Source: Sphaerisporangium perillae (GTDB lineage Bacteria > Actinomycetota > Actinomycetes > Streptosporangiales > Streptosporangiaceae). From it: a stretch of 64,000 nt of DNA. The notes beneath the pieces are model-generated. The model was not told the DNA's origin and did not search any database. It was given only the letters and a program-made list of their open reading frames with translations. The stretch covers positions 124,001-188,000 of the forward strand of contig NZ_JALLPO010000008.1 of assembly GCF_023276435.1 (NCBI RefSeq), in the 5' to 3' direction. Positions within the stretch are counted from its first letter, which is position 1. Every line of letters starts with the position of its first letter. A program made the translations under genes and the position numbers. This document shows, in pieces, positions 13,514 through 30,675 of this stretch.

Positions 13514-13580
13514 TGATCGTTTCTGGTTGCAGTTGAAGTTGCAGTTATCGCGAGTGGCCGTCTCCCCACAGCACCCCTGC

Positions 13581-13976
13581 GGGTGCCGATTATTCATCCG
13601 GCCAGGTCAAGCCACATGTTGGTACTCCCTAAGAATGCCGCCAAGTCGATCACGCCGGTGGACATCAAGGCAGGTGATCTCGGCCGGGACGGTGCTCGGA
13701 TCAGGGAGAGATCGGAGCGGGGCCGCCTGAAGAAGAGTTCGGTGTGGCCGGTGTTCGTTGTAGAACGTCTCGAACTCTCGCAGGACATGCAGGAGATGGC
13801 GCTGGTTCCAGATCAAGATGCGGTCCAACAACTCGCGTCGGCAGGTCTGAATCCAGCGCTCCATGATCGAGTTCATTCGGGTATCCGAATGCCGGTCTTG
13901 ACGACCCGCACTCCGGCATCGGCCAACACAGCGTCGAAGGCCGCGGTGAACTTGGCGTCACGGTCACGGATAAGGA
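13581..13976 (-). mobile_element. 3' remnant of an rve-type IS transposase, frameshifted
   Basis: Read on the minus strand it encodes the catalytic-core end of a DDE integrase-type transposase: RDRDAKFTAAFDAVLADAGV, then NSIMERWIQTCRRELLDRI, then EHRPHRTLLQAAPLRSLP and RDRLGGILREYQHVA. A one-base loss near 13885 separates the RDRDAKFT part from the MNSIMERW part. The outer end GGGTGCCGATTATTCATCCG at 13581-13600 resembles IS ends seen elsewhere in this window. The 5' half is missing because another IS (13977-15146) sits there. Confidence 0.8.
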
Positions 13977-15146
13977 TGTGGGTGCCGAATATCGTGTCAT
14001 AGGGTTGATCTGGGGTTTTGCTGTGCTCTATGGCTCGGCTCCGGCAGGATCGCAGGATGGCTCTGCGGCTGCTGTACTTGATCGTCTTACGGGTATTCGG
14101 CTGGATCGCGCTGCTCGCCCGATCACAGGCGTCTAAAGACGCAGAGATCCTGGTACTCCGACATCAACTCGCCGTGCTCAGACGCCAGGTCGCCGCTCCT
14201 CGACCATCATGGGCGGACCGGGCGATCCTTTCCGCGCTCGCGCGGCTCCTCCCCCGGCACCGCCGACACCACCTGTTCGTCACACCGCGGACGCTCCTGC
14301 GCTGGCATGCCGACCTGGTGAGACGACGTTGGACCTACCCCAAACACGGGCCGGGACGACCACCAATCCGACCCACCATCCGAGCCCTGGTGCTGCGCCT
14401 GGCCGCCGAGAACCCGGACTGGGGATACCGGCGCATCGCCGGACAGATCGCCGGTTTGGGCCGCAAGGTTTCCCCGGCCACCGTGTGGGCGATCCTGAAG
14501 AAGGCCGGCTTCGATCCAGCACCCCGGCGCAGCGGCCCGACCTGGGCCCAGTTCCTCAAAGCCCAAACATCCGGGATCTTGGCCTGCGACTTCTCTCACG
14601 TCGAGACGATCACGCTCGCGCGACTGTACTGCTTCGCCGTGGTCGAGCATGCCACCCGGCGGGTCCACGTGCTGGGTGTCACGGGGAACCCGACCGCCGC
14701 CTGGGTGACCCAGCAAGCCCGCAACCTGATACTCGACCTGGGCGATCGGACCGGCGACTTCCGATTCTTGATCAGAGACCGGGACAACAAGTTCACCACG
14801 CTGTTCGATGAGGTGTTCACGACCGAGGGCATCCGCGTCGTGCTCACTGCACCGCAGGCTCCACGGATGAACGCGATCATGGAGCGATGGGTGGGCAGCG
14901 CACGCCGCGAGCTTCTCGACCGGATCCTCATCATGAACGAACACCATCTGCGGGCAGTCCTCGGCGAGTACGAGACCTACTTCAATATGCGACGTCCGCA
15001 CCGGGCCCTGACCCAGGCCAGCCCACTTCGAGCATTACCCGATCCCATCGACGCCGACATCAAGGTCACCCGACGAGACCGGCTCGGCGGCCTCATACAC
15101 GAATACGCCCAGGTCGCATAAGGCGACACCATATTCGGCACCCACA
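13977..15146 (+). mobile_element. Intact rve-type insertion sequence, about 1170 bp
   Basis: Bounded by near-perfect terminal inverted repeats of about 21 bp: the left end TGTGGGTGCCGAATATCGTG (13977 onward) and the complement of GACACCATATTCGGCACCCA at the right end. It contains one transposase gene. It cuts into an older relative of itself on its left. No clear target duplication was seen at the two outer flanks. Confidence 0.8.
14057..15121 (+). CDS. IS transposase with integrase (rve) core
   Basis: About 354 aa in a single uninterrupted frame. The N-terminal helix-turn-helix (EILVLRHQLAVLRRQVAAP) is followed by an HTH_21-like stretch and the DDE core: first D in LACDFSHVETI, second D in RDRDNKFTTLF, and E in NAIMERWVGSARREL. 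The C-terminal signature is RDRLGGLIHEYAQVA. The ATG at 14057 is chosen because related proteins begin MALRLLYL; the open frame extends upstream to a TTG at 14018. All catalytic residues are present, so the element may be active. Confidence 0.88.
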   Translation: MALRLLYLIVLRVFGWIALLARSQASKDAEILVLRHQLAVLRRQVAAPRPSWADRAILSALARLLPRHRRHHLFVTPRTLLRWHADLVRRRWTYPKHGPGRPPIRPTIRALVLRLAAENPDWGYRRIAGQIAGLGRKVSPATVWAILKKAGFDPAPRRSGPTWAQFLKAQTSGILACDFSHVETITLARLYCFAVVEHATRRVHVLGVTGNPTAAWVTQQARNLILDLGDRTGDFRFLIRDRDNKFTTLFDEVFTTEGIRVVLTAPQAPRMNAIMERWVGSARRELLDRILIMNEHHLRAVLGEYETYFNMRRPHRALTQASPLRALPDPIDADIKVTRRDRLGGLIHEYAQVA

Positions 15147-15313
15147 CGCGATTGACCTTGTACTTGGGGACAGGCGCCGGCGCGCCGGGAGTGCCCGGCT
15201 GGCACAGCGCTCCTGCACCTGCTCCGGCGGCTGGTCCTAGGCATGATCCCGACCATGACGGCGCCTCGCCTGGGGCGGTAGTGGGGTAGTGAAAGGCGCA
15301 CTAAGGTCATTTC

Positions 15314-18360: not shown

Positions 18361-18534
18361 AAAGTCCTGTCAGGTCTGCTTGCCCACATCGGCCCCCTCG
18401 AGAGACAGGTCCTCGCGGCCGGTCTCCGAACGATCTGGATCGACCACGGTAATTGGCCCGGCCAGGACCACGACGCGGATCACGTCGTCACCGACGTGAT
18501 CGAGGCTATGGAAATCTTGCAGGAAGAGCGGTGA
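18361..18534 (+). pseudogene. 3' remnant of a HAD-family hydrolase gene (copy A)
   Basis: The frame ending at TGA 18534 reads GPLERQVLAAGLRTIWIDHG followed by NWPGQDHDADHVVTDVIEAM and EILQEER. AGLRTIWIDHG and the ADHVVTD segment are typical of the C-terminal end of HAD-like phosphatases. No start codon or catalytic DxD part is present, so only the last fifth or so remains. A second, frameshifted copy lies at 20561-20707. Family assignment rests on the C-terminal signature alone. Confidence 0.5.
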
Positions 18535-18686
18535 TGAGCGGGTCAAGCCGCACCCGGTGGGTGGTTGCCGTACAGCAACCGATACAGCAACACCGCCTTA
18601 CGCGATCACACGTCACCGGCCCGTACCTACCGCCTGAGCAGGCCGGGACACCGCTGACGAGACATCTGCCCTTCCCTACGGATCAG
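18361..18686 (+). repeat. Duplicated block, copy A (HAD 3' end plus TACAGCAACACCGCCTTA element)
   Basis: About 325 bp that recur at 20561-20866 in the same orientation with scattered differences. After the HAD stop, both contain a doubled ACAGCA motif and TACAGCAACACCGCCTTA (18583-18600), and both end in CATCTGCCCTT..CCTACGGATCA. The second half recurs again in part at 26452. Confidence 0.7.
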
Positions 18687-18777: not shown

Positions 18778-20213
18778 TTATGGGGTGGTGGGTGTGAGCA
18801 TCCAGGTGTTGTTGAGGTAGGCGAGTCCTAAGTTGACGAGGCGGCGGAGGTTGAGAGCGGCGGCGCGGTGGTGGAGCCAGCGGTCGTTGGCGTGGGTGCC
18901 GCGGTAGGGCAGGCGGCGGTTGCCGCGGGCTACCAGCCAGGCGACGGCGCGTTCGACCATGGGGCGCCAGCGTCGGTAGTCGTGTTGCCAGTCGGGGTCG
19001 GTGGTGGCTTGGTGGCGGGCGGCGGCTTGCAGATCGTGGTGGGGGCGGATGGTGAGGATGCGGCCGGTCTTGGCGGTGGTGCAGCGATCGTGGAGGGGGC
19101 AGGCGGCGCACAGGCCGGTGAAGGTTGCGCGTCGCTGCTGGTAGCGGCCTGCGGGTGCGGCTAAGAGAACGGTGTGTCCTGCGGGGCAGGTGACCGTGCC
19201 GGCGCCTGTGTCGATGTGGAAGTCGTCCAGGGTGAACCCGCCGGGGACGGCTGGCTTGAGCGCGGGTGGTTTGATCAGCAACTGGTGTCCGGCGGCTGTC
19301 AGGGCGGCGCGCAGGTCGGCGGTGGCGTAGGCGGCATCGGCCAGGATCTGCAGGGGGCCGTTCTCACCGGAGAGCAGTTCGGGGGTGAGGGCGGCTTCGT
19401 GGTGGTCGGCTCCGGCGCCGGGGCGCAGGGCCACCGCGGTGAACAGGCCGGTCTCCGGTTCGACGGCCAGGTGGGCCTTGTAGCCGTCCTGTCGCTGGTG
19501 TGCGCTCTTGTGGATGTGGCGGGCCTGGGGGTCGACGGTGGAGATGATCCGGTCCGGTGAGGTGCGGCGGGCGATCTGCCACCGTCCGTCGGTGCCGTCG
19601 GAGCCGTCGGCGGGCTCGACGTCTTGGCCGGCGATCAGTGCCAGCAGGCCGACCGCGCCGGCGCCGACCTGGTCCAGGTTCTGACCGGCCAGCTGGTCCA
19701 GCAGGGTGAGCGCGTCGGTGACCAGGCCGCTGACCAGAGCGGTCTTGGCCTCCTCATCGTCCCAGGCGATCTTCGGTTTGCCCGGATCGGTGTAATCGTG
19801 GGCGTGGCAGTGCGCTGCGACGATCGCGGCGGCCCCGTCCACCTGGCGGGTCACCCGGCGGATCGCGGCGATCAACTGGGTGATGGTGTCCTGGGTGGCG
19901 ACCGCGTCGGTGAGCACTGTGGAGTCCAGCGCCCGCCGCATCCGGCCTGTCAGCGCCCCGGTCTGCTCGACCACAGCACGGACGATCTGGAAGATCCGGT
20001 CCGGATCCGACGAGCGGGCCAGGCGGCGCCGGAAATACGTTAACAGCGACGGATCGAACCCCTGGTCGTATAACCCCAGCCCGCAGGCGGCCTTCCAGCG
20101 CAGGTCGAACCGCAGCGCCGCCACCGCTTCGGTATCCGACAGCCCGTGCAGCGCTTGCAGCACCACCACCGTCGCCAGCAGATCCGGAGGCACCGACGGC
20201 CGCCCGCGATCGT
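18778..20213 (-). pseudogene. IS1182-family transposase, 5' end replaced
   Basis: About 478 aa of genuine transposase: DUF772-type N domain (FDDRGRPSVPPDLLATVVVL, FDLRWKAACGLGLYDQGFD), DDE segment (RRALDSTVLTDAVATQDTIT), the KSAHQRQDGYKAHLAVEPET and ILADAAYATADLRAAL regions, and the C-terminal RWRPMVERAVAWLVARGNRR with the GLCAACPLHDRC cysteine motif. The open frame continues upstream to 20373, but that part is the complement of an IS256 fragment, so the native start is lost. The left IS end probably lies in 18710-18777. Confidence 0.8.
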
Positions 20214-20510
20214 CAAACTGTGGGAGGACGCCTGGGCGGAGTTCGTGCCCTTCCTCAACTTCGACACCGAGATCCGCCGGGTCATCTGCTCGACCAACGC
20301 GATCGAGTCGGTCAACGCCCGCATCCGCCGGGCGGTCAAAGCCCGAGGCCACTTCCCAACGAGCAGGCCGCACTCAAGTGCGTCTACATGGCCATCATGA
20401 GCCTGGACCCGACCGGGAAGGGCCGCAAACGCTGGATCACCCGCTGGAAAGCCGCCCTCAACGCCTTCGCCATCACCTTCGAAGGCCGCCTAACCCCGGC
20501 CCCTCGATAG
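20210..20510 (+). pseudogene. IS256-family transposase C-terminal remnant
   Basis: Encodes LWEDAWAEFVPFLNFDTEIR, then RVICSTNAIESVNARIRRAV, then ALKCVYMAIMSLDPTGKGR and the closing WKAALNAFAITFEGRL, matching the end of IS256-type (mutator) transposases. A one-base loss near 20357 breaks the frame between KARGHFP and EQAALK. The 5' part is missing at the junction with the IS1182 fragment near 20210. Confidence 0.8.
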
Positions 20511-20560: not shown

Positions 20561-20707
20561 TTGCTGCTGCGGACATCGATGGAGATGCGCAGCCGGTCTG
20601 CGAACGATCTGGATTGATCGGGGTACGTGGCGGGGCATGAGCATGGGGCGGATCATGTCGTTACTGACGTGCTTCAGGCGATGGAGATATTGCATGCCGA
20701 GCAGTGA
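20561..20707 (+). pseudogene. 3' remnant of a HAD-family hydrolase gene (copy B, frameshifted)
   Basis: Reads AAGLRTIWIDRGTWRG, then shifts frame into HEHGADHVVTDVLQAMEILH and stops at TGA 20707. It is the degraded twin of the remnant at 18361-18534. Confidence 0.5.
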
Positions 20708-20866
20708 TCGAGCGGCCAGGCCGTAGTTCCGCGGGGGAGCGCTGTACTATACAGCAGCCGGTACAGCAACACCGCCTTACAGGATTATTCTCCACCAACT
20801 CGCATCCACCATCTGAGCAGGGCGAGATGCCGTTGACGAGGCATCTGCCCTTGACCCTACGGATCA
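20561..20866 (+). repeat. Duplicated block, copy B
   Basis: Second copy of the block at 18361-18686: HAD 3' end, then ACAGCA doublet, TACAGCAACACCGCCTTA at 20762-20779, then CATCTGCCCTTGACCCTACG. Copies A and B flank the IS1182/IS256 debris as direct repeats. Confidence 0.7.
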
Positions 20867-21209
20867 CCGACGTTGAAGCTCGACTCGCCATCCCGCCACA
20901 AACTGCCAAAGCAGTCGCTTGACATAGGAGCGTCAGAAGGTTGGGGGATCGAGTCCTCTCAACTGCGAGCTGCAGGAAGACCGCGAGACCAGGTCTGTGA
21001 ACTTCTTACGCGCTCTGTTGAACGCGAAGGTGTTCGTCACGGTGAGGTAGGCCAGACGCAGCAGCACGACAGATCATCATGCCCCGGCAGCGCAGGCCTC
21101 GCGACTCCTGGATTCGAAGCATGTGCTCGCTGATCAGCGCTGTGATCTGCACGGATGAATTATCGGCACCCGCACCTGATCGGCAGTCCTTCGCCACGTG
21201 AGCGTGGGA
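20867..21209. other. Non-coding stretch ending in an isolated IS end
   Basis: No convincing gene. At 21152-21171 the sequence CGGATGAATTATCGGCACCC is the exact reverse complement of the IS end at 26277-26296. No transposase sequence was recognised to its left. Confidence 0.5.
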
Positions 21210-24200
21210 TCAGCATGTCTTTCGGAAGGGGAGGCCTACAACGTGGACTTGCCATTCCTGCTCGGTAAGCCCACGCCTGACGGTGGAGCATGCACGCTGA
21301 ACTGGTTGCGTCACTGCGTCGCGTATCCGGGCGACATTCCAGAGGTGGATTGTGCCACCGCCGCCCACGACCAGGGTCCCGTCGTCACTGCTGAAGGTGA
21401 TCGGGGAGTTGCTGCCCTCACTTGTCATGGTGGCCACCTGGTGGGGATTGGCGTGGTCGGTCACGTCCCATATGACCACAGAGGATCTCGGATCCACGAC
21501 GGCGAGCAGGTGGCCGGTGTGGCTGAAAGCGGTTCCGAGCGCCAGACCCTCGCGGCCGACCGCGACCGCGACCCTCCGAGGGTTGGTGCGATCGGTGACG
21601 TCCCACAGCATGAGGGAGCCGTTCAAGTCACGGGCAGTGAGGGTTTCCCCGTCGGGCTTGAACGAGACGTCGTACATGTTCGGCAACGAGGCGAGCCACC
21701 TGGGCTTCACGGGGTTGGACACGTCGAAAAGGGTGGACAGATACCCCGTGTTCATGTCGTAGGTCGAGATCGCCAGGGTACGGTCGTCGCGGTTGAACGC
21801 CAAAGACCATGTTTGGCCTCCTGGAGCGGTCAACGGGGGTTTCACCAGTTTGGGGTTCGCGGGGTCTCTCACGTCCCAGATGGTGACGACGCCGGCGCGG
21901 TCTCCGGCGACCAGAGTATTGCCGTCCGAGCTGAGCACGATCGCATCGATCGGTTGCCGGGGGTACTCGGGAGAATCGGGGCCGTATAGCGGCGGCCCGA
22001 ACGCGCGCGGGTTTCGCCTATCGGCGACGTTCCACAATATGACCGCACCGTCCTCGTCCCCGGAGGCGAGGATCCTGCGATGTGGGCTGAAGGCGAGCGA
22101 TAGAACGGCATTCTTGTGACCATTGAGTAGAGAACCGGCGGGTCGGGGATGGTCGGGATCGGCGATGTCGTACAAGGCGATGACGTATGGCTCATGTGAG
22201 ACGGCGGCCGACTCGTAGGTCACGGCCAGTAGGTCGCCGTCGGGGCTGGTTACCGCGATACTGCCGGTCAGAGTGGTTCTTTGCTTGTCGGTGGGGTCGG
22301 CTGCGTCCCAGAGAGTCACGCTTCCGTTCTGGCTACCGGTCGCCACTGTGCGGCCGTCCCGGCTGAACGCCACAGTCGCAACCCCTTCGTCGGATCTGTC
22401 ATCGTCATACCCGGCCAGCGTTGTGATGATTCGAGGGCTGGATGGGGCCGTGACATCCCACAGAATGGCGGTCTTGTCCGCCGAGGCCGTCGCCAGCATT
22501 ACGCCGCTCGGGCTGAACGCCAGCGATGTCACCTCGCCGGCGTGGCCGATCAGCGTGGCGACCTTTTTCGGCTGGCTGGGAGCCAGGTCCCACAGGTACG
22601 CGACCCCGTCCAGGCCTCCTCCCACCGCCAGGAAACGACCATTGGGGCTGAAGGCTACCGAGTGCTCGTTACCCGCCTCGTCGTCAAAGGGCCCTGCGCT
22701 GCGGTGCGGTGCGTCTAGATGGGTCACATCCCACAGCTCCAAGGCGTTATCCGAGGCGTTATCACAGCGCAGGGCTAGCATGCCGCTGCGCGGGCTGAAC
22801 GTGACCGAACGCTCCTCCCAGGACCCTTCTTTGGCCCCGCAGTGGAGGGGACCACCTGTGTGACGGACCGATGGGATCCGTGTGATGTCCCAGAGATGGG
22901 CGCCGAAAACGCCAGCGGTGGCCAGGGTCTGGCCGTCTGGGCTGAAGGCGACAAACTCCACGTTCTGGTCGCTCTTCCACTTCCTGACATGGGTGGGGCG
23001 TGCCGGATCGGTGAGATCCCACAGGACGACGGTGCCGTCTTCGCTCCCCGCGGCCAGAAGGGGAGAGACCGGGGAGAACGCCGTAGACCGCAGACGGTTG
23101 CCCGCCTGTTCAGTGAGGCGGTTGATCTGCCGGGGGTGCGCGGGATCGGCGATGTCCCACAGAGTCACAGATCCGCCCTCGTTTGCGGCAGCCAGCGTGC
23201 GGCGGTCGGCGCTGAAAGCAACCGAGCGGACGTAGTCATCGGCCTGGGTGGTGAACCTGGACAGAAAGCGATCACGAGCGACCAGGTTCACTAATGCCGA
23301 CTTGGCGCCAGTGTCAGCGGAAATGCTCGCGGCCGCGATGCCCAGACGTAGGGCCAGCTGAGGATTGCTGTCGCGAAGAACGGTGGCCTCTGCGGCGAGC
23401 GCACGCCCAGCGGCGATCCTGGCCTGGGCCTCCGCAACCGCGCTCTGCTGCCGCGCCTGCTGCCAGAGGACGGCCGTGGCAACGAGCAGGAGCGTCAGCA
23501 CGAACGCCCCGCCGACAAGGAACCGGAAGCGGCGCCGGGCCGCCCGCTGCTCAGTCCGTTCACGCAGGTCGCTGACTTGGAGGAAGTCGAGGGTCGCCGG
23601 ATCGAGCGATGCGGGTTCCGATTCCGCGGCCCAGTCGCGGGCTATGGACAGCCGACTGCCCCTGTACAGCTCGGCGGCGTCTCGGCCGCCCTGCTGCCAG
23701 GCTCGCGCGGCGTCCACAAGCCGCTGCCGGATAATCAGCCCAGCTCGGTCCGCCTCGATCCAGGTGCGCAGCTGGGGCCAACCGCGGATAAGCGCCTCGT
23801 GAGCGAGTGCGACGCTCTGGTGATCCACTGTGATCAGTCGCGCGCGCACAAAATGGTCAAGCACGTGCCCAAAGACGGCATAGTGCGGAGTGTCGGGCGG
23901 GGGACCCAGGTCGGCGAGGGAAACCGTCCGTCCGGTGTCCTCGGTTCCCTCGCCCAGGCGCACCAGTTGGGGTATCAACCGTCTGGCGATCTTTCGTTGA
24001 TCCAGGTTCAGCTGGCCCAGCGCCGCATCGGCTGACCGGGCCAGGGACTGACTGATCCCGCCGGTCGCACGGTACCCTGCCAGGGTAAGGGTCCGGCCCT
24101 CGCGATGCTGCCATGTGGCCAGCAGAGTGTAGGAGAGTAGGGGAAGCGTACCGGCGGCTCCTCCGGAGCCGAGATCCTCCAAAATAAGATCGACGAGTCC

Positions 24201-25622
24201 GGTCTGCAGCGTCAGACCGGACTTCTCGGCCGGTTTCTCGATGGCCTCGCGCAGCTGTGCGGTGGTCATCGGGCTGACGATCACCGGGTGTTCGAGGGCA
24301 GTTATCAGTTCGGCGTGTATGGTGCAGTGGCCGGAGAAGTCGGCCCGCATCCCCAGAACGACGACAGCTTCCTGGGCCGCGCACACCGCGTGCAACGCCT
24401 GGACGAAGACTCGGCGCTGCTGCTCGTCGACCGGTGCCGTGAAGACCTCCTCGAACTGGTCCACCACGATGACCGGTCGGCTGGCGCGGTTCTCGGCGGT
24501 ATGCCGGAGTATCTGCCGAAAGACACCGGGGTCGGCTTCCAGATGTCGGCGTACGTCGGCTGGGTGCGAGCCGTCCGCCGGGGCGAACCGCGCGGCCAGG
24601 GCGCGGACCGGATCTGCGCCCGGAGTCAGCCAGACCGCAGCTCCGGGAGTAGACACGTCCAGGTGGGCGATCAACCCGGCGCGCAGGAGCGATGATTTGC
24701 CCGAGCCGGACGGGCCGGTGACCAGCAGGGGCCCCTCCCGGTCCAGTTGATCGGTCACACGGTCGAGAAGGTTGGCAGTCAACTCCTCACGTCCGAAGAA
24801 GTCCGAGGAATCATCGGGCCCAAAGGCGGCCAGCCCCCGATATGGGCTGAACTCCCCCGGATCGGGGTTGGAATATGCGGCGTTGGGAGCAAATGGCGGC
24901 CTGTGCCCGTGGTCGGTGACGTGTCGATGGGGCTCAGGGAAACCCTGATCGGCCAGCGTCCGCGCCAGCGACCTGTGGACATCGTCCAGCGTCAACACAC
25001 CGGGCGCGGTCGGATCACCGCTAACCAGCAGTCGAATCAAAGCGCCCGAGAAGGCGGTGTACGGCTCGCCCTGTGGAGCCCATGCCGCCTGGTCCCGACC
25101 GGTGGCCGCCAGCAGGTACATGCCGTGCCGAGCACCACGGAACATCTCCTCGGTATTCGCCCTCGCCACTCCCCCCGCGCGACCGGCGAAGCAACAGTCC
25201 AGCACGACCAGGGTGAACGGCGCCCTGGAGCCCTCCAGGACCCGGCCCACCTGCCAGTACGGCAGCGCTTGGTGAGCGGCGATCCCCTCGGTCAGATCCA
25301 CGGTCGCGCGCGTGGCCAGATGCAGTTCATTTCGCGCGTCCACCAGGCCATGCCCCACGTAGTAGACGACCAGCACCTCTCGAGCCTGCCCGGCTGCCTC
25401 CACCAGTGCCTGGCCGAACTCGACCGGGCTGGCAGGGTCGATCAGCATGGTCAGATGAGCCTGATCGAGGCCGGTCTGCTCCACCAGGCAGCGGCCCAGA
25501 TCACTCACCGTCGCAGCCACCGCGGGCACCGCCGACAGCCGGGAGCCGGCCGCATAGGTGCCCGATCCCACCAGCAACACCCGAGCGCCCGGCGACCCCA
25601 GCAGCAGCTCACCCGGCTCCAT
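21210..25622 (-). CDS. Caspase-like / STAND ATPase / WD40-repeat protein
   Basis: 1470 aa. Residues 1-235: caspase-fold (C14) peptidase with catalytic His91 in VVYYVGHG and Cys144 in LDCCFAG. Residues about 258-600: nSTAND-type NTPase opening FSPYRGLAAFGPDDSSDFFG, Walker A GPSGSGKSS (303-311) and Walker B VIVVDQFEEVF. One membrane-like segment follows at about 700-725 (FLVGGAFVLTLLLVATAVLW). The C-terminal ~650 residues hold about a dozen WD40 repeats (VAFSADRRTLAAANEGG, LAFSPSGVMLATASAD). STAND proteins typically keep an effector silent until the repeats sense a trigger; here a protease effector is probably released. It overlaps the upstream EACC1-like gene by 14 bases. The frame is intact in a zone where neighbours are broken. 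Confidence 0.9.
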   Translation of the reverse strand: MEPGELLLGSPGARVLLVGSGTYAAGSRLSAVPAVAATVSDLGRCLVEQTGLDQAHLTMLIDPASPVEFGQALVEAAGQAREVLVVYYVGHGLVDARNELHLATRATVDLTEGIAAHQALPYWQVGRVLEGSRAPFTLVVLDCCFAGRAGGVARANTEEMFRGARHGMYLLAATGRDQAAWAPQGEPYTAFSGALIRLLVSGDPTAPGVLTLDDVHRSLARTLADQGFPEPHRHVTDHGHRPPFAPNAAYSNPDPGEFSPYRGLAAFGPDDSSDFFGREELTANLLDRVTDQLDREGPLLVTGPSGSGKSSLLRAGLIAHLDVSTPGAAVWLTPGADPVRALAARFAPADGSHPADVRRHLEADPGVFRQILRHTAENRASRPVIVVDQFEEVFTAPVDEQQRRVFVQALHAVCAAQEAVVVLGMRADFSGHCTIHAELITALEHPVIVSPMTTAQLREAIEKPAEKSGLTLQTGLVDLILEDLGSGGAAGTLPLLSYTLLATWQHREGRTLTLAGYRATGGISQSLARSADAALGQLNLDQRKIARRLIPQLVRLGEGTEDTGRTVSLADLGPPPDTPHYAVFGHVLDHFVRARLITVDHQSVALAHEALIRGWPQLRTWIEADRAGLIIRQRLVDAARAWQQGGRDAAELYRGSRLSIARDWAAESEPASLDPATLDFLQVSDLRERTEQRAARRRFRFLVGGAFVLTLLLVATAVLWQQARQQSAVAEAQARIAAGRALAAEATVLRDSNPQLALRLGIAAASISADTGAKSALVNLVARDRFLSRFTTQADDYVRSVAFSADRRTLAAANEGGSVTLWDIADPAHPRQINRLTEQAGNRLRSTAFSPVSPLLAAGSEDGTVVLWDLTDPARPTHVRKWKSDQNVEFVAFSPDGQTLATAGVFGAHLWDITRIPSVRHTGGPLHCGAKEGSWEERSVTFSPRSGMLALRCDNASDNALELWDVTHLDAPHRSAGPFDDEAGNEHSVAFSPNGRFLAVGGGLDGVAYLWDLAPSQPKKVATLIGHAGEVTSLAFSPSGVMLATASADKTAILWDVTAPSSPRIITTLAGYDDDRSDEGVATVAFSRDGRTVATGSQNGSVTLWDAADPTDKQRTTLTGSIAVTSPDGDLLAVTYESAAVSHEPYVIALYDIADPDHPRPAGSLLNGHKNAVLSLAFSPHRRILASGDEDGAVILWNVADRRNPRAFGPPLYGPDSPEYPRQPIDAIVLSSDGNTLVAGDRAGVVTIWDVRDPANPKLVKPPLTAPGGQTWSLAFNRDDRTLAISTYDMNTGYLSTLFDVSNPVKPRWLASLPNMYDVSFKPDGETLTARDLNGSLMLWDVTDRTNPRRVAVAVGREGLALGTAFSHTGHLLAVVDPRSSVVIWDVTDHANPHQVATMTSEGSNSPITFSSDDGTLVVGGGGTIHLWNVARIRDAVTQPVQRACSTVRRGLTEQEWQVHVVGLPFRKTC

Positions 25623-25992
25623 TGGTGTCCTCGGCGTTCTTGAGCACCTCGGCTAGGTGCGTGGTCAACGCGCGGGTCTGTGCCAGATCCAGGGACTTCA
25701 CACCCTTGGCGCTGACCTCCGCCACCGCGTCACCGCGGGTGATCTTCACGGTCACCTCGCCACCGCGATTGCCCAGCCACGCGATCACCACCCCGGCCAG
25801 GGTGGCCAGCGCACCCCCGGCGCCAAAGGCGACCTGCAACATCTCCGGAACCGGACCGAGCGCCCCGGCGGCCGGCTCGGCCTCGACCAGGCCCACCCGT
25901 CCACGCAGCTCCGGTTCCTCCACCAGCCAGGACCGCAAATCACGCAACCCGTCCGCCGAATCACCGACTGTGACGGTAACCAGGATCTCCAT
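25609..25992 (-). CDS. EACC1-like small membrane protein, partner of the caspase-STAND protein
   Basis: 127 aa. An N-terminal beta-rich part (MEILVTVTVGDSADGLRDLR, WLVEEPELRGRVGLVEAEP), one membrane segment at about 55-75 (AFGAGGALATLAGVVIAWLG), then GGEVTVKITRGDAVAEVSAK and a C-terminal helix. This is the layout of the effector-associated constant component 1 proteins described in actinobacterial NTPase/caspase conflict systems. ATG 25992 has GGAG five bases upstream and is preferred over TTG 26010. First gene of the two-gene operon. Confidence 0.75.
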   Translation of the reverse strand: MEILVTVTVGDSADGLRDLRSWLVEEPELRGRVGLVEAEPAAGALGPVPEMLQVAFGAGGALATLAGVVIAWLGNRGGEVTVKITRGDAVAEVSAKGVKSLDLAQTRALTTHLAEVLKNAEDTNGAG

Positions 25993-26262: not shown

Positions 26263-26276
26263 CTCCTCCGCCTTGT

Positions 26277-26335
26277 GGGTGCCGATAATTCATCCGCCCA
26301 GGTCAAGCGGCATGGTGGTACTCCCTCAGAATGCC
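26277..26335 (-). mobile_element. End fragment of an rve-type IS
   Basis: IS end GGGTGCCGATAATTCATCCG at 26277-26296. Beyond it, on the minus strand, the last codons GILREYHHAA and stop of the same transposase family as at 13607. The rest of the element is gone. Confidence 0.7.
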
Positions 26336-26451
26336 AATAGGTGCCGGAAACTCGACCATCGGTCGCGACCTGGGGTTTCTGTTCGGCGGACGAGAGGTAT
26401 CCGAGACCGGCAGGATCGAGACTTGTGGCGGTCACATCCAGTTAAGTGGTG

Positions 26452-26535
26452 TACAGCAACACCGCCTTGCACGATCGCACTCCGTCGGACCGCATCCACC
26501 GTCGGATCAGGACGAGGAGCCACCAACAAAGGCTG
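26452..26535 (+). repeat. Third copy of the TACAGCAACACCGCCTTA block (partial)
   Basis: TACAGCAACACCGCCTT at 26452-26468, followed by the same spaced blocks as copies A and B (GCATCCACC, GGATCAGGACGAGGA, GTGCCCTTG). The HAD remnant found upstream of copies A and B is absent here. Confidence 0.6.
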
Positions 26536-26725: not shown

Positions 26726-26917
26726 GTGCGTCGCCCGCTCGACGTCGTACTCGCTTGGACCTGCGAGGCTGTCCTACATAAAGACTGACGCTGGAGCCTG
26801 CCCGGTAGGTACCCCGGATTGCCGCTACGAGCGCGTGTCACAGCATCTCGATGTTGTCGCGGGCTCCGCGGGCGGCGCACCGTTGTCCATCTTCGGGGGA
26901 CAGACCGCGGAGGCGCA
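26726..26917 (+). ncRNA. Candidate bridge-RNA region of the IS110 element
   Basis: IS110 recombinases of the IS621 type are guided by a bridge RNA transcribed from the non-coding stretch upstream of the gene. This 190-base stretch occupies that position and has several self-complementary patches, but I have not folded it and cannot place the target and donor loops. The assignment is positional inference. Confidence 0.3.
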
Positions 26918-28210
26918 ATGGAGGTCGTCCATCCCCGGGCAGCCGGGATCGACGTGCACAAGAAGATCGTTTGGGTGGCGGTGCGGCTGCCCGGCGAGCA
27001 CAAGCCGATCGTCAAGAAGTACCCGACGTTCTGGCGAGCGTTACAGAAGATGGCCGCCGACCTCGTCGAACTGGGCGTCACCGATGTGGCGATGAAGTCA
27101 ACCGGCATGTACTGGTGGCCGGTCTACCACGCGCTGGCCCAGACCGGGCGGATCGAGGTGTGCGTGGCCAACGCCGAGCACCTCAAGAGCGTTCCGGGCC
27201 GCAAGACCGACATCCGCGACTGCCAATGGATCGCCGAACTGCACCAGTTCGGGCTGCTGCGGCCCAGCTTCATCCCGGCCCAGGAGGTGGCGGCACTGCG
27301 GGCCCGCACCCGCTACCGCAAGAAGCTGATCGAACAGCGGATGAGCGAGGGACAGCGGCTGGCCAAGGTGCTGGAGGACGCCGGGATCAAAATTGACTCG
27401 GTGGCCTCCACGCTGCTGGGCGTCTCGGCCCGGGACATGATCGAGGCGTTGATCGCCGGGGAGCGTGACCCGCGCGTGCTGGCCAACCTGGCGCGCGGGG
27501 TGCTGCGCGCCAAGCTCGATGATCTGGTCATGGCCTGCGACGGCCGTTTCACCGACACCCATGCGCAGATGTGCCGGCTGCACCTGGACGCCTACGACCA
27601 CGCCACCGCCAGGATCGCCGAGCTGGACACTCTGGTCGCCCAGGCGGCCGCACCTTTCGAGCCGGTCATCGCCCGGCTGATGACCATCACCGGGATCGGA
27701 CGGCGCACCTCGGAAGTGATCGTCGCCGAAACCGGCGGCGACATGTCCCGCTTCCCCACCCCCGAGCAGCTGGCCGCCTGGGCGGGCCTGGCCCCGGGCA
27801 ACCGGGAATCGGCGGGCAAACGCAAGCGCGCCGGCACCCGCAAGGGCAACAAGCATCTCAAGGCCGCGATGGTGGAAGCGGCCTGGGCCACCGCCCGCAC
27901 CCGCTCCAGGATGGGAGCCCGGCTGCGCCGTCTGACCCGCCGTTTCGGCAAGCAACACGCCAAGAAGGCCGCGGTCGCCGTCGCTCACACCCTGCTGCGG
28001 ATCGCCTGGGCCGTGATGGCCAACAACGAGGATTACCGTGAGGACGGCGGCGACTTCTACGACCGGCGTGAGGCCCGGCACGCCCAGCACCTGGCCTCCC
28101 GCTACCAGAAAACCCTGGAACGCCTCGGCTACCAGGTCACCCTGATTCCGCCGGAGCCCGACCCGGCCAACAACCCCGTCTCCGACCCCCCGGAGGAATT
28201 AGCGGCTTGA
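26918..28210 (+). CDS. IS110-family recombinase, catalytic Glu changed to Lys
   Basis: 430 aa. RuvC-like DEDD domain: D12 in AAGIDVHKK, then KSTGMYWWP where the family has ESTG, then D98 and D101 in RKTDIRDCQW. The C-terminal Tnp domain with the serine region (TITGIGRRTSEVIVAETGG, AAWAGLAPGNRESAGKRKRA) follows. The second acidic residue is Lys60 (AAG at 27095-27097), so this copy may be catalytically dead. ATG 26918 begins just before the conserved GIDVHK; the open frame extends to 26819 without support. Confidence 0.88.
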   Translation: MEVVHPRAAGIDVHKKIVWVAVRLPGEHKPIVKKYPTFWRALQKMAADLVELGVTDVAMKSTGMYWWPVYHALAQTGRIEVCVANAEHLKSVPGRKTDIRDCQWIAELHQFGLLRPSFIPAQEVAALRARTRYRKKLIEQRMSEGQRLAKVLEDAGIKIDSVASTLLGVSARDMIEALIAGERDPRVLANLARGVLRAKLDDLVMACDGRFTDTHAQMCRLHLDAYDHATARIAELDTLVAQAAAPFEPVIARLMTITGIGRRTSEVIVAETGGDMSRFPTPEQLAAWAGLAPGNRESAGKRKRAGTRKGNKHLKAAMVEAAWATARTRSRMGARLRRLTRRFGKQHAKKAAVAVAHTLLRIAWAVMANNEDYREDGGDFYDRREARHAQHLASRYQKTLERLGYQVTLIPPEPDPANNPVSDPPEELAA

Positions 28211-29923: not shown

Positions 29924-30675
29924 TCATGCGATGTGGGCGCCCGCTGGTGGTGTCCACACAGCCGGAAGTAGTTCTGTCGCCCTTTGGTAGGCGAGCTTGA
30001 GGGTGGCGTGTCGGACGGTCGCCGTTTCCCCGGTCTGGGCTATGAGTACTTCACGCAGCGGATGACGCGATTCGATGAGGTCGTTGTTGCGCTGTTCGAG
30101 CCATGGCATCCAGGTTTCGTGTGGTGCTCGGTCCTGCTTCGCCTGATTGCAGGGCTTGCATGACAGAACCAGGTTCCAGATGGCGTCGACATCGGGGCCG
30201 TTCCAACGGCGGGTAAGCAGCTTCCAGGGCAGGACATGCTCGACGACGGGCCCGGTTCTCGTGTCCTGCGCCATGACCTCGTTGCAGTAGGCGCAGCGGC
30301 CGTCTTGATATCCGCTGAGGGCGGCGACGACTCCGGTGACGCTCTTGCGGCGCTGCTTGGTCTGCAGTACCAGGTGCTGAGTGTCAGGGTCGTAGACCAG
30401 CGAGGGAGCGAGTACGGCGTCGGATATGCCGGTCTCCCACGCCGTCTCCACCAGCCGCCAACGGGCAGCGGTTTCGGCATCGAGATCCTGGGCGTGTACC
30501 GACCGGGCGAGTTCGAGTAGTTCATCGCGCAGCACCAGGCCTGGATGTCCAGCAGGGTCGCGCCGAAGGCGAACTTGTAGGTAGCCGAGTTGGCGCCGTA
30601 CAACACGATGGCACGCCATACGCTCTCAGCGGTGACCACGCCACGTCGGTAATCCACATACGAAGTATCGGACAA
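29924..30675 (-). pseudogene. HNH endonuclease, frameshifted
   Basis: The upstream frame encodes YVDYRRGVVTAESVWRAIVL then YGANSATYKFAFGATLLDIQ. After a one-base loss in a G/C run near 30545 the protein continues as GLVLRDELLELARSVHAQDL, and later carries the HNH core CAYCNEVM, VVEHVLPWKLL, LVLSCKPCNQAK. All nuclease residues are present, but the frames are separate, so only a truncated product would start downstream. The probable start is TTG 30675, divergent from the next gene by 12 bases. It could be a lone defence-type nuclease. Confidence 0.7.

Follow-up and report, generated by a model that had tools for sequence, protein, structure and literature searches.

Two intact ORFs on the minus strand of Sphaerisporangium perillae, at positions 21210–25992 of the window (the whole stretch of 64,000 nucleotides that was analysed), appear on balance to encode an EACC1 two-gene system of the transmembrane STAND-caspase receptor kind, with a variable sensor on the outer side of the membrane. 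Judged from profile matches (PF19953, NF047832) and co-occurrence, the pair belongs to the EACC1 two-gene system, ‘System 4’ of Kaur et al. 2020 (PMC7159879), known from sequence only, as the first-pass annotation had correctly supposed in assigning it to EACC-type caspase/NTPase systems. The main text of that paper describes a two-gene arrangement in which as many as 50 C-terminal domains occur, and the window pair resembles it in having the EACC1 gene first, the caspase gene second, and a variable C-terminal region, with STAND NTPases among the attached domains. What the present analysis adds to the catalogued system is the topology of the large protein: hydropathy, charge bias and the cysteines of related proteins suggest that the caspase and its switch are probably inside the cell and the 14 WD40 repeats outside.

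The first gene of the pair (25609–25992, minus strand) encodes EACC1, a protein of 127 amino acids that matches PF19953 at 96.9 bits, far over the Pfam cut-off of 23.6. The second (21210–25622, minus strand) encodes a protein of 1470 amino acids and shares 14 bases (25609–25622) with the first, as annotated. Its N-terminus is a caspase domain (residues 14–225, positions 24948–25583) matching the NCBI family ‘caspase, EACC1-associated type’ (NF047832, 186 bits, cut-off 140), of which it is an ordinary member with no difference found; the catalytic His91 and Cys144 stand where the first-pass annotation had put them, and the STAND P-loop reported there corresponds to an nSTAND1 NTPase domain (PF20703, 400 bits; residues 260–649, 23676–24845). 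The membrane-like segment noted earlier is a hydrophobic helix, predicted to be transmembrane, at residues 701–720 (23463–23522), with seven Lys or Arg in the 15 residues before it and two in the 15 after. Behind it, the WD40 repeats first counted as about a dozen number 14 by WD-type motif, spaced at 41–53 residues (WD40 part about residues 775–1440, 21303–23300, supported by profile and motif and predicted from topology signals to lie outside), and the protein ends in a tail carrying a cysteine pair, Cys1445 and Cys1470 (21213–21290), recognised by tail alignment and cysteine counts. All these features lie on the minus strand.

Pairing of the two genes recurred well beyond the window. In this genome EACC1 genes and EACC1-type caspases number five each, adjacent in 5/5 cases. 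A caspase ORF adjoins EACC1 in 37/45 EACC1 loci, counted by eye (one of the 37 is a 69-residue fragment, and the eight without a caspase neighbour include one where the profile missed EACC1 itself). For caspase loci from named genomes, of which the best 80 among 542 confirmed were used, EACC1 lies upstream in the same orientation and at ≤1.5 kb in 63/80, none being detected within that distance at the other 17. The first-pass annotation had named the lack of an EACC1 match together with the lack of co-occurrence as what would count against it; the PF19953 match and the paired loci point the other way. Seven EACC1-first loci without a full caspase were inspected and showed no clear other partner; two EACC1-first loci (L029 and L052) appear to contain decayed caspases. 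Among the distinct caspase domains the catalytic His is present in 54/54 and the Cys in 53/54. Viral contigs contributed four loci: one (L172) with EACC1 and caspase, one (L173) with a caspase and no EACC1, and two (L174, L175) with no caspase ORF, which were left out of the 82-locus caspase set. At L172 (6071–8339 of IMGVR_UViG_2731957741_000002, catalogued as viral) the caspase beside EACC1 is fused to a BacA-like domain with several helices. EACC1-like matches were also seen in 6/72,556 plasmid records, all actinobacterial (H14–H19), for example at 58% identity on a plasmid of Streptosporangium sp. NBC_01495.

Topology was examined in 43 full-length caspase-nSTAND1-WD40 proteins, comprising the window's own and the 42 relatives left from 47 caspase-nSTAND1 proteins when five had been dropped (two truncated at a contig end, two lacking a WD40 match and one short ORF). 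A hydrophobic helix separates nSTAND1 from WD40 in 43/43, with median hydropathy 2.47. When Lys and Arg were counted over 15 residues on each flank, the NTPase side was the richer in 41/43, with two ties and no reversal. By the positive-inside rule the basic flank of a membrane helix lies on the cytoplasmic side, so the caspase and NTPase would be cytoplasmic, where ATP is, and the WD40 part would be outside. Cysteines are sparse behind the helix: their density there is 4.2 per 1000 residues, or 1.6 if the tail pair is left out, compared with 10.0 in the part before it. Their number is even in 36/43 behind the helix compared with 18/43 before it; 36/43 would have a chance of 4.5e-6 were the proteins independent, which, being related, they are not. 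A C-terminal cysteine pair, 24–27 residues apart, is found in 41/43 and absent from two, and the number of outer cysteines is odd in 7/43. In the window protein this pattern is consistent with a disulfide between Cys1445 and Cys1470.

The same signals bear on a rival role for the protein, along the lines of the first-pass annotation: an NLR-like sensor in the cytoplasm whose WD40 part detects a phage component and whose caspase then brings about abortive infection. Kaur et al. argue in their main text that such systems answer mainly invaders inside cells (PMC7159879), which would agree with a cytoplasmic sensor. The layout of effector, STAND and WD40 resembles that of Apaf-1 and of defence STAND proteins. 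We nevertheless regard this role as decidedly improbable here, given the basic NTPase-side flank and the cysteine pattern behind the helix, given that long WD40 proteins lacking a helix look different (see below), and given the sparse trace of the module among defence systems and phages: PADLOC returned weak matches confined to the P-loop region (mad8, 6e-6; mad3, 0.0043) and none for EACC1, and matches in phage records (3/50,697) concerned the nSTAND1 part only. The division of labour in the first-pass annotation, in which the WD40 part senses, the ATPase switches and the caspase acts, agrees with STAND logic and with the pattern of divergence described below; a placement within the cell does not sit well with a WD40 part that is probably outside, and a cytoplasmic phage signal would then not be the natural trigger. 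Elsewhere in the window, an HNH protein (29924–30619, minus strand) has weak similarity to PtuB of Septu (PADLOC 5.8e-9).

Helix and tail were also found together in proteins without a caspase. A tail-alignment search of this genome recovered ten proteins, with an upstream helix in 10/10, six of them nSTAND1-WD40 proteins without caspase; one match (L232) is partial, its second cysteine not being seen. Five other genomes gave 49 tail-match rows, of which 18 were fetched, with a helix in 18/18; these were picked by hand, mostly without caspase, and are not a random draw from the 49. The number of cysteines behind the helix was even in 16 and odd in four of 20 tail-motif proteins. As a reverse control, long WD40 proteins with no helix lacked the tail pair in 7/7, with two to eight cysteines in or behind the WD40 region, although six of the seven look like a single family by their tails; an eighth control WD40 protein, of 358 residues with an N-terminal helix, had neither cysteine nor tail. 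Caspase-less proteins with the common helix, WD40 part and C-terminal cysteine pair (L204–L209 and L214–L231), most of them with nSTAND1, may represent a general receptor chassis whose N-terminal parts are exchangeable.

The published model assigns the roles otherwise. In the main text of Kaur et al., EACC1 is proposed to be a membrane-spanning sensor that activates the caspase, with caspase self-cleavage helping to deploy a C-terminal effector (PMC7159879); the data here point instead to an EACC1 that does not span the membrane and to an exported WD40 sensor. We took the one spanning helix of the published EACC1, with parts of the protein on both sides, to be a way of reading the domain and did not make membership depend on it; its counterpart is taken to be EACC1's single hydrophobic stretch. 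In an AlphaFold2 model of the window EACC1, built from 61 sequences (mean pLDDT 81, pTM 0.75), strands occupy residues 3–9, 33–37, 50–56, 81–86 and 89–94 and helices residues 13–24, 61–74, 95–99 and 103–123, and in that sole hydrophobic stretch the model has a strand that passes through a Gly-rich turn into a helix of 14 residues, short for crossing a membrane. Among members, the turn contains Pro in 22/61 and the most hydrophobic 19-mer contains a charged residue in 21/61. A simple insertion energy was unfavourable for EACC1 in 61/61, and favourable for the linker helix of the large protein in 37/43. Mean hydropathy, in favour of the published model, passes a simple threshold of 1.6 in 49/61 EACC1 members and of 1.8 in 30/61. 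On these grounds we regard EACC1 as probably a small domain, either soluble or peripheral, that does not span the membrane, which would suit its fusions to EAD1 and EAD2 reported in the main text of Kaur et al. (PMC7159879). The first-pass annotation was right in likening the small protein to EACC1, and its membrane nature is doubtful in view of the 14-residue helix and weak hydropathy. A PDB sequence search with EACC1 gave weak matches to two short chains (C2-F8 and C2-B) and to a de novo protein and was uninformative. For the window pair we hold the published model to be improbable: the C-terminal part of the large protein follows a transmembrane helix and seems to be exported, a poor fit to release into the cytoplasm.

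That model would better suit other members, as the C-terminal regions are diverse. A variable domain behind the caspase, a feature of the EACC1 system, is present in the window pair and its relatives alike. The other four EACC1 caspases of this genome are a caspase-helix-BNR propeller, a caspase followed by several helices and a YncE-type propeller, a caspase-nSTAND1-helix-WD40 protein, and a 718-residue caspase-nSTAND1 protein ending ~160 bases before its contig does. With a helix or helices followed by a propeller in three of the four, a layout of inside caspase, membrane and propeller would recur with three propeller families. We scanned 20 of the 35 caspases without nSTAND1. Three carry a solute-binding domain and one a PASTA domain, all behind helices; the others carry Hsp70 (two), KAP NTPase, TPR, amylase, ClpP, SpoIIE with GAF, SAD-SRA (two, one with HNH) or BacA (the viral contig), and six had no family. 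Domains that look cytoplasmic (Hsp70, ClpP, SAD-SRA with HNH), which favour the published model where they occur, indicate that one mechanism cannot fit the whole family.

Caspases of metacaspase type cleave after Arg or Lys, and an Asp two residues before the catalytic Cys is linked to a basic P1 preference. That Asp is present in 54/54 caspase domains, and a search of solved structures with the caspase profile returned metacaspase-4 first (PDB 6w8s, 1.1e-6), with the D-x-C motif aligned. Cleavage after Arg or Lys would therefore be expected of the window caspase, which shares D-x-C with metacaspase-4 and differs from metacaspases in its fusion to a STAND NTPase, a helix and WD40 repeats.

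Divergence among relatives changes abruptly near the helix. In 50-residue blocks, the four nearest relatives are mostly 50–80% identical to the window protein up to residue 650 (extremes 38 and 82%) and 41–54% over residues 651–700; thereafter three of them fall to 22–41% and the fourth (L096) to 24–47%. DNA similarity to the locus from Planotetraspora silvatica (L092) stops at window position 23623, ~residue 666, while the L092 contig continues for at least another 454 bases. Averaged over 903 pairs, the caspase and nSTAND1 parts are each 46% identical and the WD40 part 28%. A diversifying sensor outside the cell would give such a step; weaker constraint alone could too. In a mirror-tree comparison of 28 members, EACC1 distances correlated with those of the caspase, nSTAND1 and WD40 parts alike. 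No specific tie of EACC1 to the caspase emerged, the joint fit being best with nSTAND1 (8/999 permutations as high) as against the caspase (305/999).

The first-pass annotation had held that selection keeps the module, pointing to its intactness while most neighbours are broken. Distances for changing and silent sites against P. silvatica were 0.04/0.39 for EACC1, 0.22/0.79 for the caspase and 0.24/0.96 for nSTAND1, and behind the helix 0.74/1.88 over 94 codons, where silent change is near saturation; the low ratios suggest that selection has maintained the genes, at least between the window and P. silvatica. The state of the neighbours lends this no support. The adjoining insertion-sequence remnants are decayed, yet six of the ten neighbouring ORFs scanned have family matches, and the match runs nearly end to end for a GDPD gene and for the two transposase ORFs closest by, so that widespread breakage is not established. 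The matched genes include a DDE transposase (18778–20373), presumably IS1182-like, and an IS110-type transposase (26819–28210).

An inverted repeat around the module was considered as the ends of a mobile cassette and rejected, the repeats being decayed IS ends with the right end on the left and the left end on the right. Repeat comparison identified the right-end remnant at 21027–21174 (plus strand), outside the system, and a left-end remnant of the same IS family in the other flank at 26271–26335 (plus strand), 88% identical to 13575–13639; a fuller copy of the family lies at about 13575–15150. Its end motif has seven copies in the genome at ≤2 mismatches, compared with none for a reversed control pattern. 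The bracketing ends would amount at most to a decayed composite arrangement. Two copies of the end motif lie 296 bases apart, in a MITE-like manner, and direct repeats of about 280 bases (18414–18685 and 20588–20866, 75% identical) bracket the DDE transposase gene, with a related piece of 66 bases at 26451–26516.

The receptor architecture need not serve defence; the same protein could signal development or cell-wall stress in a filamentous actinomycete. PASTA and solute-binding domains elsewhere bind wall fragments and small molecules, and it is in keeping with such a role that related caspases carry these domains behind helices. It is in keeping, too, that the system is tied to multicellular bacteria, which make up 650 of the 671 organisms with the system in Table 1 of Kaur et al. 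(PMC7159879). Distribution and rate of change are more typical of conflict systems: EACC1 occurs in a patchy 75 of 200 genomes sampled from the order (an EACC1-type caspase in 120, 94 of these above cut-off), the whole protein was found in one piece in none of the matches listed in 20 relatives, and the outer half changes fast. A developmental or wall role is possible, if rather unlikely.

In the working model that we favour, the caspase and nSTAND1 domains would be cytoplasmic, a single helix would cross the membrane, and the 14 WD40 repeats would form an exported sensor closed by the C-terminal disulfide. A signal from outside (candidates are a change in the envelope or wall, an adsorbing phage, or a signal from competitors or kin) would alter the WD40 ectodomain, and nSTAND1 would then form ATP-dependent clusters in the membrane, joining the caspase domains and turning them on. 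The active caspases would cleave after basic residues, in metacaspase fashion, leading to cell death or dormancy. EACC1, made just before the caspase from the overlapping gene, would most likely be a small cytoplasmic alpha+beta partner that restrains the caspase or relays to it.

Familiar proteins offer partial parallels. Apaf-1, a cytoplasmic protein, has an NTPase switch followed by WD40 propellers at the C terminus, and the caspase that it brings in through its CARD is a separate protein. PDB 3sfz, which we take to be the Apaf-1 apoptosome, is among the structure matches of the WD40 part; the likeness is one of working (NTPase switch, WD40, caspase control) and not of membership, since the window protein carries its caspase in the same chain and has a membrane helix between switch and WD40 part. 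PknD-type receptor kinases have the enzyme inside, one helix and an extracytoplasmic beta-propeller sensor, a layout like that proposed here, although with a kinase instead of a caspase, no STAND switch and an unrelated propeller family. Kaur et al. note transmembrane helices and an extracellular PBP domain in some members (PMC7159879), and a 2021 paper of related content names nSTAND1, sometimes within EACC1 systems (PMC8195603). Searches of open-access papers (main texts) yielded no experiment on the EACC1 system and no statement that the WD40 part is outside, and passages of PMC10907252, PMC5587647 and PMC6805158 did not treat the topology of such proteins.

Chances seem evenly balanced that a large class among EACC1 systems consists of bacterial transmembrane death receptors, each with a strain-variable, exported and disulfide-closed ectodomain (WD40 here; elsewhere BNR, YncE-type, PASTA or solute-binding), one helix, a STAND switch, a caspase of basic specificity inside and a soluble cytoplasmic EACC1 partner. 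If so, a single actinobacterial polypeptide would unite NLR-type switching with sensing at the cell surface, and for this class sensor and effector would swap the places that the published model gives them. That model may still apply to members that look cytoplasmic; it does not suit the helix-WD40 class found here. The side of the membrane on which the sensor lies decides which trigger to seek. Were the outside reading true, it would extend to other actinobacterial nSTAND1-WD40 proteins with the same helix and tail, and the ligands to seek would be extracellular or in the envelope rather than phage proteins in the cytoplasm.
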